Shown in pieces: positions 16,412 through 30,332 of a stretch of DNA of 36,706 nt. Within the stretch, counting starts at the first letter, position 1. Every line of letters begins with the position of its first letter. The notes beneath the pieces are model-generated. The model saw only the letters and a list, made by a program, of their open reading frames with translations. It searched no databases and was not told the DNA's origin. This DNA is from Alkalispirochaeta alkalica DSM 8900 (GTDB taxonomy: Bacteria; Spirochaetota; Spirochaetia; DSM-27196; Alkalispirochaetaceae), in assembly GCF_000373545.1 (NCBI RefSeq), contig NZ_KB891725.1:20521-57226 (forward strand). Reading direction: 5' to 3'. The position numbers were made by a program, and so were the translations under genes.

Positions 16412-17302
16412 CTACAGCCGGTAGCTCTCGAGCCCCAGATTTCTGCAAATATGGATCGTTGACCAGGAATTGTTCAGCGTATAGAGGTGGACACCGGGGA
16501 CATCCCGGTTCAGCAGATCGGCCACCTGGGCCGTGGCCCAGTGGGTCCCAACGCGGTTCACTCCCTGGTCATCGTGGGTTCGCTCCACCGCCCGCAGAAG
16601 GGCAGCGGGGAAACGGGCTCCCGCTGCAAGCTCGGCCATGCGCTGCATTCCCTTTCTCGTTGTGACGGGCATGATTCCCGGAACAACGGGAAGGGTGATC
16701 CCGGCAAGAGCCAGCCGCTCCACGTAATCAAAGTAATCCCGGTTATCAAAAAAGAGCTGGGTTACAATGTAATCGGCCCCGGCATCCACCTTCCGGCGCA
16801 GGTACTCGATCTCCAGAAGCCGGTTCGGTGTATCGGGGTGCCCCTCGGGGAACCCGGCAACACCGATCGATGCCTCGGGCATATAATTTCGCACAAAGGA
16901 AACCAGCTCGGCAGCACAGGAAAAATCGCTCCTCCTGCTCTCTTCGCCCCCCTGGCGGGGAAGATCTCCCCGGAGCGCCAGGATATTGCAGACCCCGGCA
17001 GCCCGGTATTGATCGAGAATTCCGGCGATCTCGGCCCGGCTGGAGCCGACGCAGGTCAGATGGGCCACCACGGTGAGGTTAAACTCGCTCTGTATCCGCG
17101 TGACCAGGCGGTGCGTGTACTCCCGGGTTGATCCGCCCGCCCCGTAGGTAACGCTCACGTAGGCCGGTTCCAGAGGTAGAAGGTCCGTCCCTATGCTGTG
17201 AAAAAGTCTGTTCCAGCCCTGCTCGGTTCGGGGCGGAAAAAACTCGAAACTGAAGAGCGTCTTTCCCCGACCCAGAAGGTCCGATACCCGTTCAATTGCC
17301 AC
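16412..17302 (-). CDS. metF: Methylenetetrahydrofolate reductase
   Basis: 296 residues. FSFEFFPPRT near residue 17 carries the catalytic Glu. VSVTYGAGGS, AHLTCVG, NILALRGD, ADYIVTQLFFD and VPGIMPVTT are the family's FAD and folate blocks. It reduces 5,10-methylene-THF to 5-methyl-THF, the methyl donor for methionine synthesis. The start is a GTG at 17300-17302, 11 bases after the metK stop, with AGGGG upstream. It is the third gene of ahcY-metK-metF. Confidence 0.95.
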   Translation of the reverse strand: MAIERVSDLLGRGKTLFSFEFFPPRTEQGWNRLFHSIGTDLLPLEPAYVSVTYGAGGSTREYTHRLVTRIQSEFNLTVVAHLTCVGSSRAEIAGILDQYRAAGVCNILALRGDLPRQGGEESRRSDFSCAAELVSFVRNYMPEASIGVAGFPEGHPDTPNRLLEIEYLRRKVDAGADYIVTQLFFDNRDYFDYVERLALAGITLPVVPGIMPVTTRKGMQRMAELAAGARFPAALLRAVERTHDDQGVNRVGTHWATAQVADLLNRDVPGVHLYTLNNSWSTIHICRNLGLESYRL

Positions 17303-17313
17303 GACGGGAACCC

Positions 17314-18501
17314 CTAGCCAACTGCCCGCTGAAGATCGTTCACGCGATCTGTCTGCTCCCAGGAAAACTCAGGGCGCCCAAAGTGACCGTAGGCGGCGGT
17401 TTGCGCGTATATGGGCTTCAGCAGATCCAGCGTTGCAATAATTCCCCCGGGTGTGAGATCGAAGGTCTTTTCCACAGCCCCCTCGATGACACTCTCGGGA
17501 GCAACCGCCGTGCCAAAGGTTTCAACCATAACACTCACGGGAAAGGGAACCCCGATCGCGTAGGAAAGCTGCACCTCGCACCGGTCAGCCAGACCGGCGG
17601 CAACAATATGCTTCGCCACATATCTCGCCATATAGGCTGCGCTCCGGTCAACCTTGCTGGGATCCTTGCCGCTGAAAGCGCCTCCACCGTGACGGCCCAT
17701 ACCCCCGTAGGTATCGACGATAATCTTTCTGCCCGTGAGACCCGAGTCTCCGTGGGGGCCACCAATGACAAAACGCCCCGTGGGATTCACCAGATAACGG
17801 GTCTTTCCGTCCAGCAATCCGGCAGGTTCCAGAACCGGTTTGATCACCTGCTCCACCAGAGTCCGGGTAATCTCCTCGTGGGAAACCTCGGGATCGTGCT
17901 GATGGCTCACCACAACGGTGTCTATTCTCCTGGGCTTCATTCCCTCGTATTCAACGGTAACCTGACTCTTGGAATCGGGCCTCATCCAGGGAATGACCCC
18001 GCCCTTTCTCAACTCTGCAGCCTTCTGAAGAATCTGATGGGAGAACATGATCGGTGCCGGCATGAACTCCGGTGTTTCCCGGCACGCATAGCCGAACATC
18101 ATGCCCTGATCACCGGCACCCTGCTGCCCCTGATACTCTTTCAGCCCCGCTCCGCTCACCCCCTGGGAGATATCGGGACTCTGGGAATGGATCGCGTTCA
18201 GGACGCTCATGGATTCATAATCAAGACCGTAGGAAGGGTTGGTGTATCCAATGGACCTGGCTACTTCCCGGGCAACCTGCTGCACATCGACATAGGTCGA
18301 AGTTGTGATCTCCCCCCCCACCAGAACCAGTCCCGTGGTGGTAAAGGTCTCGCAGGCGACACGACTTCGGGGGTCATCGGCAAGACAGGCATCCAGAATT
18401 GCATCGGAAATCTGGTCCGCGAGCTTGTCGGGGTGCCCCTCGCTCACAGACTCCGAGGTAAAAAGGTACCGGCTCCTGGCCGGCACACTCTGTGGGTTCA
18501 T
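17314..18501 (-). CDS. metK: S-adenosylmethionine synthase
   Basis: 395 residues, the usual length. [17 protein letters not shown] (N-terminus), [16 protein letters not shown] and [19 protein letters not shown] are the diagnostic blocks, holding the ATP, Mg2+ and K+ sites. It forms SAM from methionine and ATP. The ATG is 18 bases after the ahcY stop, with GGAG nine bases before it. Co-transcription with ahcY and metF is expected, so the ahcY leader could influence all three at the RNA level. Confidence 0.97.
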
Positions 18502-18519: not shown

Positions 18520-20043
18520 TCAGTACCGGTAGGCCTCGGGCTTGAAGGGCCCCGTAGGGGAAACACCGATGTACTCAGCCTGTTCCGGCGTCAGTCTGGT
18601 GAGTTCAACACCCAGCTTGTCCAGGTGTAACCGGGCAACCTCCTCATCGAGAAGTTTGTCAAGAACTCGGACACCGGGCTTGTAGTCCTCCCGGTGGTTC
18701 CACAGGTCGAGCTGCGCCAGAACCTGGTTGGTAAAACTGTTGCTCATGACAAAACTCGGGTGTCCCGTGGCGTTCCCCAAATTCACCAGCCGCCCCTCGC
18801 TCAGAAGATAGATCGAATGGGCCTTGATGGTGTTTCCCGCATCGTCCTGACCGTCTTCCCAGGTGTATTTGTCGACCTGGGGCTTGATATTTTCCCGGAC
18901 CACACCGCTCGAGGCGTTCAGGCGTTCCACCTGAATCTCGTTATCGAAGTGCCCGATATTCGCTACAATAGCCTGGTCTTTCATTCCCTGCAGGTGCTCC
19001 AGGGTTATGATGTCCCGGTTTCCCGTGGTGGTTACAAAAATATCCCCCCGGGAAAGAACCGTCTCCAGCCGTTTTACCTCGTAGCCTTCCATGGAGGCCT
19101 GGAGTGCACAAATAGGATCGATCTCCGTTACGATCACCCGGGCTCCCTGATTCCGGAGACTCTGGGCGCAACCCTTGCCCACATCACCGTAACCACAGAC
19201 CACAGCAACCTTTCCGGCGATCATCACATCGGTTCCCCGCTTGATTCCGTCGATCAGGCTCTCGCGGCATCCATAGAGGTTGTCAAACTTGCTCTTGGTA
19301 ACGCTGTCGTTTACGTTGATCGCCGGAACCAGGAGCGTTCCTTCCTGGGCCATCCGGTATAACCGGTGGACCCCGGTGGTTGTCTCCTCGCTCACTCCGC
19401 ACCACTGGGAAACCAGACGGCGGAAAAAACCGGAATCTTCCTGGTGAACCCGCTTGAGAAGGGCCTTGATCACGCCCTCCTCGTGGCTCTCCGCCGGACC
19501 CTCGACCCAGGCATCACCCGCTTCCATCTGCACACCCTTGTGAAGCAAAAGCGTGGCATCGCCTCCGTCGTCGACGATAAGCTGCGGGCCTCTGGCCGGG
19601 GAAGCGCTCCCCTCTCCGGTATCACCCTCCCCGGGAAAGGAAAGCGCCTTCAGGGTCATCTCCCAATACTCCTCCAGCGTCTCGCCCTTGAAGGCAAACA
19701 CGGGAACGCCCCGGGGCTCGTCGGGGGATCCTCCCGCCTGGGGAGGTCCCACCACAACGGCTGCAGCGGCGTGATCCTGGGTGGAAAAGATATTACAACT
19801 GGCCCATCGAAGATCGGCGCCGAGCTCCGCCAGGGTCTCCACGAGAACCGCTGTCTGCACCGTCATATGGAGGGACCCCGTGATCCGAACACCTGCAAGA
19901 GGTTTCAGGGGGCCGTACTTTTCCCGGGTAGCCATGAGTCCGGGCATCTCGTGTTCGGCGATGGTGAGCTCTTTTCGCCCCCATTCGGCCAGAGAGAGAT
20001 CGCGGACATGATAATCCGCCGGGGAAAGGGGTGACCTTTTCAT
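18520..20043 (-). CDS. ahcY: S-adenosylhomocysteine hydrolase
   Basis: 507 residues. [23 protein letters not shown] and the downstream [12 protein letters not shown] form the NAD-binding Rossmann motif. [17 protein letters not shown] holds the catalytic Lys and Asp. The C-terminus KPEAYRY is the conserved tail that reaches a neighbouring subunit's NAD. It hydrolyses SAH to adenosine and homocysteine, relieving methyltransferase inhibition. An acidic Gly/Ser-rich insert near 145-160 is extra relative to most homologues. The start ATG is preceded by AAGGAG, which lies inside one arm of a long inverted repeat described separately. Confidence 0.96.
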
Positions 20044-20147
20044 ATAGTCTCCTTGTTCGATACAGAAGAAGCGTAAAACAATACCCTCCTGCAGTCAACC
20101 GAACAAGGATGTGCCCGCTCACAGAGTCAGGAGGGTCTGGGGAAAGA
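20044..20147 (-). promoter_or_regulatory. Predicted pseudoknot leader of ahcY that sequesters the ribosome site
   Basis: Two perfect inverted repeats interleave between gcvH and ahcY. In transcript order they are arm A (20136-20128, ACCCTCCTG), arm B (20109-20100, TCCTTGTTCG), A' (20091-20083) and B' (20059-20050). A pairs with A' over 9 bp and B pairs with B' over 10 bp. The order A-B-A'-B' is an H-type pseudoknot. The A-B loop contains a small UGUG/CACA hairpin (20110-20123), the B-A' junction is 8 bases and the A'-B' loop is 23 bases. B' contains AAGGA of the ahcY Shine-Dalgarno, so formation should block translation. It does not read like the SAH riboswitch or SAM-II as I know them. A weak promoter (TTGACT, 17 bases, TACGCT) lies in the same stretch and is a rival explanation for part of it. 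Confidence 0.65.
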
Positions 20148-20537
20148 CTAGTCCTTCAAACCCTCGGTATAGTTCTTGTAGGCTACACTGTCCATGAGCG
20201 CTTCCATCTCAGCGGGATCATCGAGTTTCACCGTAATGATCCAGCCTGCGCCAAAAGGATCCTGGTTGATCGTTTCGGGAGCATCCTTCAGCGCCTCATT
20301 GCAGGATACCACGGTACCGCTTACGGGCATGTACAGGTCGCTCGCTGCCTTCACGCTCTCCACGACCCCCAGAGGCTGCCCCTTCTTGAGGGAAGTTCCC
20401 GCTTCGGGAAGCTCAACAAAGACCACATCCCCCAGTTCATCCTGGGCATAATCGGAAATGCCGATCCGTGCTGTCTCTCCCTCGGACCGAACCCATTCGT
20501 GGCTGTCCTGGTACCGTACCGTCTCGTCGAAGGTCAT
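20148..20537 (-). CDS. gcvH: Glycine cleavage system H protein
   Basis: 129 residues, full length. The lipoylation site is Lys63 in GVVESVKAASDLYMPV, and the N-terminal HEWVRSEG and the GDVVFVELPEAGT block are typical. It shuttles the aminomethyl group of glycine between the P, T and L proteins, yielding methylene-THF. The other gcv genes are not in this window. The ATG follows AGGAG by seven bases. It is the first gene of gcvH-ahcY-metK-metF, which links one-carbon supply with the methyl cycle. It also provides a substrate for the nearby lplA product. Confidence 0.96.
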   Translation of the reverse strand: MTFDETVRYQDSHEWVRSEGETARIGISDYAQDELGDVVFVELPEAGTSLKKGQPLGVVESVKAASDLYMPVSGTVVSCNEALKDAPETINQDPFGAGWIITVKLDDPAEMEALMDSVAYKNYTEGLKD

Positions 20538-20756
20538 GTAGGTCTCCTATCGTTTTCCACAACTTATCCACATTCCGTGGACAAATAACTCCTCCCCCGG
20601 GGGGGGAGAATACATCAAAATATCACAAATATTTCGCTGATTTTTCTATTCTTGCAGAAATTGTGGGGCCCTTTTGCGCCTTCTTCAGGGATATCCGTGA
20701 AGGTATCCAAAAGTTATCCACAACAATTCCACAATAATTGCTTTTGCGTGAAAACC
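20538..20756. promoter_or_regulatory. gcvH-jag gap with a DnaA-box cluster
   Basis: Perfect TTATCCACA boxes lie at 20564-20572 and 20714-20722. Variants are TTTTCCACA (20553-20561) and CGTGGACAA (20576-20584, reverse). The middle is AT-rich. A GC-rich 7-bp hairpin (20592-20598 with 20602-20608) lies between them. The pair closest to gcvH sits within about 40 bases of its ATG, where DnaA binding could affect transcription. No clear -35/-10 was found. Confidence 0.6.
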
Positions 20757-26707: not shown

Positions 26708-28111
26708 TCAGGCCCGACTGCCCTCCTCTTTTATCTTCCGGATCAGGGTTTGGATGATATCTTCGATGGTGGGGTCCGTTCTCATGCGACTGCTAATTCG
26801 CTGACAGGCGTGCATCACCGTTGTGTGGTCCCGCCCTCCAAATTCGAGCCCCACATCGGTCATGGAAGCTTCGGTTATCTCCCGGGTGATGTACATGGCC
26901 ATTTGCCGGGGAAAGGCCACCTGGCGTGTCCGTTTCTTTCCCTTCAGCTCGTTGGAGGAGAGATTGAAATAATCGGCCACAACCCGCTGTATGATGTCTA
27001 CGGTAATGTTGTTTTGGGTGGGGCTCGAGAAAAAATCCTTGAGCTGCCGCTGGGCAACCTCCAGAGAGACTTCCTTATTCACCAGTTCTGCGTAGGCGAT
27101 GATCCGTGTAAGAGCAGCTTCCAGATCGCGAACGTTGGTGGTTATTTTCTGGCAGATCAGGTTGATTACATCGTTCGCCACATAGACGCCCTGTTTCTCG
27201 GCCTTCTTTTTCAGAATAGCCACGGCTGTTTCCATTTGGGGAGGCTGAAGATCAACGGTCAGACCCCGGGTGAAACGATTCTGAAGTCGTTCGGTAATAT
27301 CCTTGATTTCACTCACGGGACGGTCCGAGGTGAAGATCATCTGCTTTTTCGCATCGAAGAGCGCGTTAAAGGTATGGAAGAGTTCTTCCTGGGTTTCGTG
27401 TTTCTTCTGAAGAAAGTGAATGTCGTCGATGAGGAGAACATCTGCCTTGCGGTATTTGTTCTTGAAGAGGTGAGTCTTGTTTTCCTGGATCGATCGTATG
27501 AACTCGTTGGTAAAATCCTCGGCTGTTACATAGACGATCTTTGCCTCGTCTTTCTCCTGCCAGACGGCGTTTCCGATCGACTGGAGGAGATGAGTTTTTC
27601 CCAGACCTACACCGCCGTAGATAAGGCAGGGGTTATAGGTTGTTCCGGGGTTTTTTGCGATTGCAATCGCTGCATTCGCAGCGAAGCGATTATTGTCGCC
27701 TACAACAAAGTTTGTAAAAGTATATTCTTCGTTCAGCCCCGGGGCGGGAAGGGTATTCCCCGGTTTTTTTTCCCTTTCTCTCGCTGAGGGTCCTCCGGGT
27801 GTTTCCGGAAGGTCTTCCGATGAGTCCTGACGGGATTTTTCCTGAACAAGTTCGGTCTTTGTAATACTGAAATGAATCTGAAACGATCGCCCCGAGAGTT
27901 CTCTCAGGGTCTTCATGATAAGATCGAGATACCGCTGTTTCACCTGGTCCCGGTAAAATGATGAAGGAACGGTGACGGTTATGGAATCTTCATCGGATTC
28001 GGTATATTCAATTTGCTGGAACCACATTACGTATTCCTGTTCGGAAATCTGCTGTTGTATTATTTTCAGCGCTTCGTCCCAGAATACTCTGTTACCTTGC
28101 CATTCGCTCAT
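26708..28111 (-). CDS. dnaA: Chromosomal replication initiator DnaA
   Basis: 467 residues in four domains: I (about 1-85), a short disordered II (about 90-125), the AAA+ ATPase III and the DNA-binding IV. Walker A is GGVGLGKTHLL (166-176), Walker B is VLLIDDIHFL, and the DnaA signature GGRDHTTVMHAC lies in domain IV. It binds TTATCCACA boxes and opens the origin. The boxes upstream of its own gene suggest autoregulation. The ATG at 28109-28111 has only a weak GGGG ribosome site. Confidence 0.98.
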   Translation of the reverse strand: MSEWQGNRVFWDEALKIIQQQISEQEYVMWFQQIEYTESDEDSITVTVPSSFYRDQVKQRYLDLIMKTLRELSGRSFQIHFSITKTELVQEKSRQDSSEDLPETPGGPSAREREKKPGNTLPAPGLNEEYTFTNFVVGDNNRFAANAAIAIAKNPGTTYNPCLIYGGVGLGKTHLLQSIGNAVWQEKDEAKIVYVTAEDFTNEFIRSIQENKTHLFKNKYRKADVLLIDDIHFLQKKHETQEELFHTFNALFDAKKQMIFTSDRPVSEIKDITERLQNRFTRGLTVDLQPPQMETAVAILKKKAEKQGVYVANDVINLICQKITTNVRDLEAALTRIIAYAELVNKEVSLEVAQRQLKDFFSSPTQNNITVDIIQRVVADYFNLSSNELKGKKRTRQVAFPRQMAMYITREITEASMTDVGLEFGGRDHTTVMHACQRISSRMRTDPTIEDIIQTLIRKIKEEGSRA

Positions 28112-28178
28112 GCTAACCCCAAATTATCCACATATTATCCACATATTGGTACACTATTTATCCCCAATGATGAAGCCC

Positions 28179-28206
28179 ATAATACCATAGGGAGAGAACG
28201 TTTCCA
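28179..28206 (-). promoter_or_regulatory. Candidate dnaA promoter
   Basis: Minus strand: TGGAAA (28201-28206), 16-base spacer, TATTAT (28179-28184). Three DnaA boxes lie between it and the ATG, fitting autorepression. A second candidate has a perfect -10 TATAAT at 28263-28268 and a TTGTGG -35 (28287-28292) that overlaps a DnaA-like box. Confidence 0.45.
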
Positions 28207-28349
28207 GTGGGTTGGACGGGGTTTTTCCCGGATTTTACCCTACAACTGTGGTATTTGAAGGTATTATAAAAAAGAGTCGGCTTTTTCCACAATGAGATCC
28301 ACAAATTATCCACATCTTGTCCACTTCCCGGTGTATGGATTGTGGATAA

Positions 28350-30332
<1,983 letters not shown>

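Follow-up and report, generated by a model that had tools for sequence, protein, structure and literature searches.

The short gap between gcvH and ahcY in Alkalispirochaeta alkalica DSM 8900 (G000) carries two interleaved inverted repeats, and this raises the question of whether the leader of ahcY is a riboswitch-like pseudoknot, as the initial annotation had proposed, or has another role. The window, that is, the whole stretch of 36,706 nt that was analyzed, belongs to a draft genome of 3.36 Mb. On its minus strand, the genes follow the order yidC, jag/eloR, gcvH, ahcY, metK, and metF. The glycine cleavage H protein gene, gcvH (20148..20537; TIGR00527, 169 bits), is co-directional with and upstream of the adenosylhomocysteinase gene, ahcY (18520..20043; TIGR00936, 583.6 bits), which is the first gene of ahcY-metK-metF. 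The identities of metK (17314..18501) and metF (16412..17302) were also confirmed. From the gcvH stop (20148) to the ahcY ATG (20043), the gap is 104 nt (20147 to 20044, minus strand). Two same-genus relatives, G002 and G006, have a second full-length ahcY (loci L019 and L020) whose product is 67-68% identical to AhcY of the window; its directly adjoining upstream neighbor is a gene end resembling a PfkB-type sugar or adenosine kinase.

A repeat search of the gap returned exactly two perfect inverted repeats of at least 7 bp, in the order A-B-A'-B' on the minus strand, and confirmed that repeats of 9 and 10 bp interleave within 104 bases. Arm A (ACCCTCCTG, 20128..20136) forms the 9-bp repeat with A' (CAGGAGGGT, 20083..20091). 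Arm B (TCCTTGTTCG, 20100..20109) forms the 10-bp repeat with B' (CGAACAAGGA, 20050..20059), and the pairing reaches 12 pairs if GT is added (to 20098). The ahcY Shine-Dalgarno (SD) sequence, AAGGAG, is located at 20054-20049, and B' covers AAGGA of it; the last arm overlaps most of the SD, and B is the anti-SD arm. Among 20,000 dinucleotide shuffles, an inverted repeat of at least 9 bp occurred in 196 and one of at least 10 bp in 32, and the interleaved 9/10 pair occurred in none. We also used a calibration sample of 421 upstream regions, obtained by simple gene calling in 40 stretches totaling 800 kb of G000. Inverted repeats of at least 9 and at least 10 bp were present in 30 and 16 of these regions, respectively, and SD-zone repeats of at least 8 bp in about 4% of G000 upstream regions. 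Interleaved repeats of at least 8 bp gave four rows at three places, a count from which the ahcY leader is absent because a spurious ORF shortened it there. The small chance claimed for both repeats therefore stands against shuffled sequence but is weakened by the genome's own upstream regions: the pair before ahcY is rare, not unique in kind. Arm A is also complementary to the 3' end of gcvH (last codons, 20165-20157), and A' also pairs locally inside the B/B' loop. Elsewhere in G000, a further pair of interleaved inverted repeats (AAGTCAAGA / CAAAAGGA arms) overlaps the TTGACT promoter of the divergent intergenic region C1:87050-90058.

The SAH riboswitch (RF01057) is a pseudoknot-based element immediately in front of ahcY that can mask the SD. 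The element in the window is similar in leader position, pseudoknot arrangement, and SD coverage, but unlike the riboswitch it gave no covariance-model match. An Rfam search of the leader with 4227 models returned no match. At relaxed thresholds, the best hit was L31-Firmicutes, with 14.4 bits (gathering 33.3) and outside the leader, and RF01057 did not match the ahcY leader at either threshold. The same search found the SAH riboswitch with 46-58 bits in Xanthomonadaceae ahcY leaders (Pseudoxanthomonas, Xanthomonas, and Lysobacter; loci L046, L055, and L065), and in a scan of genome contigs at distant ahcY loci this control was the only find. The covariance-model search that the initial annotation had recommended thus matched no known SAM or SAH class, even at relaxed thresholds, in line with the stated absence of the SAH core. 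When a covariance model of the element itself (R1) was applied to 46 genomes of the order, G000 and the nearest relative compared, G005 of the same genus, matched well. A match in G028 (19 bits) was set aside, its surroundings looking protein-coding and having no link to ahcY. A widespread new RNA class was rejected, as no third convincing example appeared among the 46 genomes. The ahcY leaders of five further genomes of the genus (G001, G002, G003, G004, and G006) have no core in common with the G000 element. A novel riboswitch would show a conserved core and compensatory changes in several species; of the compensatory changes sought in relatives, we found one two-sided change in B/B' (in G005) and none in A/A'. 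A leader peptide starting from the SD-like AGGAGG in A' (TTG TTT TAC ... TGA, 13 codons, ending on the ahcY ATG) was considered and dropped because the frame in G005 ends after 5 codons.

Interleaved inverted repeats before a gene call for a promoter check before a riboswitch is named. Between B and B' lies TTGACT-GCAGGAGGGTATTGTTT-TACGCT. The -35 element (TTGACT, 20093..20098) and the -10 element (TACGCT, 20070..20075, ending 26 nt before the ATG) are separated by 17 nt, a spacer in which arm A' lies. The site has the sigma70-type form, with TTGACA/TATAAT-like boxes, a spacing within the usual 16-18 nt, and enrichment upstream of genes. It has 8 of 12 consensus bases, under the 9/12 rule of the promoter finder, with 3 of 6 in the -10 element. 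Scored alone within its own leader it was not significant (p about 0.14), so the genome-wide distribution of spacers was needed. In the 421 upstream regions, the 17-nt spacer accounted for 19 occurrences of TTGAC...TA...T and the 18-nt spacer for 6, compared with 0-4 at each other spacer from 12 to 24 nt (0-2 on the sense strand). Its rate was 0.25/kb in upstream regions and about 60 times lower, 0.004/kb, within coding sequence. These 19 occurrences, of which about one would be expected by chance, include the ahcY site, and short leaders of 6-30 nt are present among them. Two G000 genes have a promoter motif whose end lies just 6 and 8 nt ahead of the start codon. Since the motif peaks sharply at the 17-nt spacer in 800 kb of G000, TTGACT-N17-TACGCT is very probably ahcY's own promoter.

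Promoters of like form precede ahcY in G005 (TTGACT-N17-TACGTT, with an identical -35 element), G002 (TTGACG-N17-TACCTT), and G009 and G022 (TTGACT-N18-TACCTT), and related forms with 17-nt spacers were found before ahcY in other clades, two of them directly before the ATG. Between G000 and G005, 14 of the 17 spacer positions are conserved, which is unusually high, and a plain promoter needs no such conservation. From promoter geometry, the ahcY transcription start is predicted 6-8 nt past the -10 element, at 20061..20063 on the minus strand. An mRNA starting there would lack A, B, and A', the situation that the initial annotation had itself named as contrary to its proposal. In G011 and G018 (loci L120 and L124), TTGTAG-N17-TATATT-AGGCCG-ATG stands before ahcY without an SD, about 35 nt before the gene, which suggests that these ahcY mRNAs are leaderless.

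The comparison with G005 bears on whether the repeats are maintained. Fourfold-site identity between the two genomes is 0.52 in ahcY and 0.48 in gcvH. The final 78 nt of the leader, into the ATG region, are 81% identical (blastn), and the conserved block begins at arm B. A blastn search over 41 genomes found a homologous ahcY leader in G005 only. In the consensus fold of the two sequences, a long imperfect hairpin has B/B' at its base and A' paired with the -10 region inside. B/B' keeps 11 of its 12 pairs in G005, three changes being one-sided, and the inner nested stem (A' with 20075-20066) keeps 9 of 9, counts that come from two sequences only and have no statistical weight alone (shuffle controls at 244-258 of 500). 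The SD-zone duplex exceeded shuffles in G000 (p 0.002), G005 (0.0027), G002 (0.0022), and G032 (0.008), and the whole-leader fold z-scores were -2.1, -3.0, -3.0, and -2.1 in the same order. The sequences of the SD and anti-SD arms differ between lineages: in G002, the SD is covered by a helix of 15 pairs with a single bulge (CTCCTTGGCCGGTCA/TGGCCGGACCAAGGAG), and the distant G032 has an SD-zone helix (CCTTGAACCGAC/GTCGGTTCAAGG) unlike the sequence of the window. In each case with a helix, the start of a promoter-like motif (TTGAAC-N17-TATGTT in G032) falls within the upstream arm or downstream of it. In G000, predicted SD accessibility was 0.14 with the upstream arm and 0.41 without it, and in G002 it was 0.003 and 0.51, respectively; in G005 it did not change (0.34 both ways).

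As own-genome background, 5 of 150 SD-bearing upstream regions of G000 reached p <= 0.01 against 1.5 expected. A general overuse of SD sequestration in G000 was rejected, the excess being slight; given this background, the 4 of 33 ahcY leaders with such pairing are only a moderate excess. B/B' does look selected, given that G005, G002, and the distant G032 each have an SD/anti-SD helix of differing sequence. Translational control of ahcY, which the initial annotation had inferred, is plausible since the nearest relative retains an SD-occluding helix and two further genomes have one built from other sequences, but the riboswitch, or functional pseudoknot, through which it was thought to act is unsupported.

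The A/A' pairing behaves differently from B/B'. Arm A falls in a leader region barely alignable with G005, where its CCCTCC core is retained and 8 of 9 pairs are kept, two as G-U. A/A' is thus weakly kept, as read from the alignment, competes for A' with the better-kept nested stem, and is probably either incidental or a poor terminator of gcvH. Its hairpin (-24.1 kcal/mol, 9-bp stem, 36-nt loop) is followed directly by ATTGTTTT, and this large-loop candidate is the only one between gcvH and ahcY in the window, where no canonical terminator was found. The G005 counterpart has one broken stem pair and ATCGTTGT as its T-tract, and the rule used for G000 finds no terminator there. Canonical terminators without an SD helix were found after gcvH in G006 and G003 and 174 nt before ahcY in G004, whereas G000, G005, and G002 have the SD helix without a canonical short-loop terminator. 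G001 has only a weak terminator-like match, neither terminator nor helix being clear, and G007, a family-level relative, has a longer hairpin followed by CTTTGTTT. Within the genus, the SD helix seems to replace an ordinary terminator. This pattern, in few genomes, fits insulation from gcvH transcription by either means; the contrast is blurred by A/A' with ATTGTTTT as a possible poor terminator in G000.

The reading we favor, with a probability of roughly 0.55, is that the segment is the promoter of ahcY-metK-metF embedded in an SD-sequestering hairpin. From the repeats, motif statistics, and conservation described above, we infer the transcription start, read-through, and reduced translation as follows. 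The sigma70-type TTGACT-N17-TACGCT, for which the sequence evidence is strong, would start the ahcY mRNA about 20 nt before the ATG, and this mRNA would carry B' and a free SD without A, B, and A'. In RNA coming from gcvH, as the comparison supports, B would pair with B' and thereby cover the SD, and the promoter sequence would form a loop containing the nested imperfect stem. Read-through RNA from gcvH would then be poorly translated for ahcY, so that ahcY-metK-metF would be insulated from gcvH transcription and its control left to the internal promoter. No ligand would be required, and A/A' would be incidental or a weak gcvH terminator forming before B/B'. If A/A' with ATTGTTTT does terminate gcvH RNA, little read-through would be left, which counts against this reading.

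A similar arrangement has been described in phage T4, where long transcripts that begin at upstream promoters form a hairpin that hides the ribosome-binding site of I-TevI, I-TevII, I-TevIII, segB, soc, and e (lysozyme), while short transcripts made from a promoter immediately 5' of the gene lack the 5' arm and can be translated (PMC2988022). As in T4, the 3' arm of the helix covers the ahcY SD, and the promoter motif is placed so that the predicted transcript loses the 5' arm. Unlike T4, this is a metabolic operon on a spirochaete chromosome with a sigma70-type promoter in place of a phage late promoter, and the mechanism here is predicted. A literature search with narrow terms found no chromosomal precedent, which is not evidence of absence. 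If the reading is true, the locus would exemplify, on a chromosome, a device known chiefly from T4, in which one stretch of DNA is both promoter and RNA hairpin loop and a gene ignores transcription from its neighbor.

Alternatively, ahcY could have a plain promoter and a short leader, with B/B' and A/A' as chance complementarities without a role. The genome-wide 17-nt spacer peak and the frequency of repeats in the genome's own upstream regions, both for inverted repeats of at least 10 bp and in the SD zone, suit this explanation. Its difficulty is that B, which lies upstream of the -35 element, is conserved against a neutral background of 50%, and that G002 and G032 also pair the SD, using other sequences. 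The site resembles an ordinary sigma70-type promoter with a short leader in its motif and genome-wide spacer; it differs in that a conserved imperfect hairpin, which also takes in the SD, surrounds it. We consider this explanation doubtful. Control at the DNA level, by a repressor or activator on the conserved block (-43 to +20), possibly via a TTGTTCG/CGAACAA dyad and responsive to SAH or SAM, is unlikely. SahR, an ArsR-family SAH-responsive repressor of ahcY/metK/metF in Proteobacteria, binds a 20-bp palindromic operator (PMC4239095). The target genes are the same, but no such operator or linked regulator is established in G000. In favor of this reading, the genome encodes ArsR-type HTH proteins, SahR's family. 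Conservation between G000 and G005 that runs contiguously across the promoter spacer would suit a bound protein, and so would the short dyads that G003 and G004 carry close to the start of ahcY, whose half-sites are similar. None of the HTH_5 matches was linked to ahcY, however, a 40-bp separation is unexpected at a dimer site, and the repeat always includes the SD, its sequence varying between species while complementarity stays, as for RNA. The dyads themselves, TGTTCAGAAAATGAACA in G003 (L015) and TTGTTCACCGTTTGAACAA in G004 (L017), lie beside the ahcY SD and may be an operator or a small hairpin.

A/A' could also be an intrinsic gcvH terminator that forms before B/B' and leaves B/B' as a second barrier on escaping RNA. 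The stable hairpin with ATTGTTTT directly after it and the terminators upstream of ahcY in relatives speak for this; we nevertheless judge it distinctly improbable, given the 36-nt loop, the broken stem and lack of a detected terminator in G005, and the competing pairing of A with the gcvH 3' end. It is very improbable that the leader is an RNA switch confined to this lineage, in which RNA initiated at gcvH would fold into either A/A' (gcvH termination) or B/B' (SD sequestration) depending on a metabolite or protein, and the internal promoter would supply basal expression only. The least credence goes to a switch for SAH, SAM, or adenosine that would use the A-B-A'-B' pseudoknot on RNA started at an unseen promoter lying 5' of A. 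In its favor, the two repeats match perfectly and interleave, the CCCTCC core of A is kept in G005, and ahcY is the right gene for an SAH switch. Against this, Rfam gave no match despite a working positive control, the other same-genus leaders have no conserved core, and the element occurs in only one other species. In addition, A/A' is the weaker of the two pairings, A' being better kept in the local nested stem (9/9 vs 8/9 pairs), and the internal promoter would bypass the pseudoknot.

The window also contains dnaA (26708-28111, minus strand), dnaN, recF, and gyrB/gyrA (from 28356, plus strand), and GC skew changes sign near 26-27 kb; a replication origin likely lies within the window. Between dnaA and gyrB (28112-28355) lies a cluster of DnaA boxes (TTATCCACA, 0-1 mismatch). 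A second, smaller cluster lies upstream of gcvH (20538-20756), with boxes at 20553, 20564, and 20714, and the two clusters may form a two-part origin. Just upstream of gcvH, the segment 20538-20585 (ATTTGTCCACG.AATGTGGATAAGTTGTGGAAAACGATAGGAG), which includes DnaA-box-like sites, is almost identical in G005, with fourfold sites only about 50% identical.
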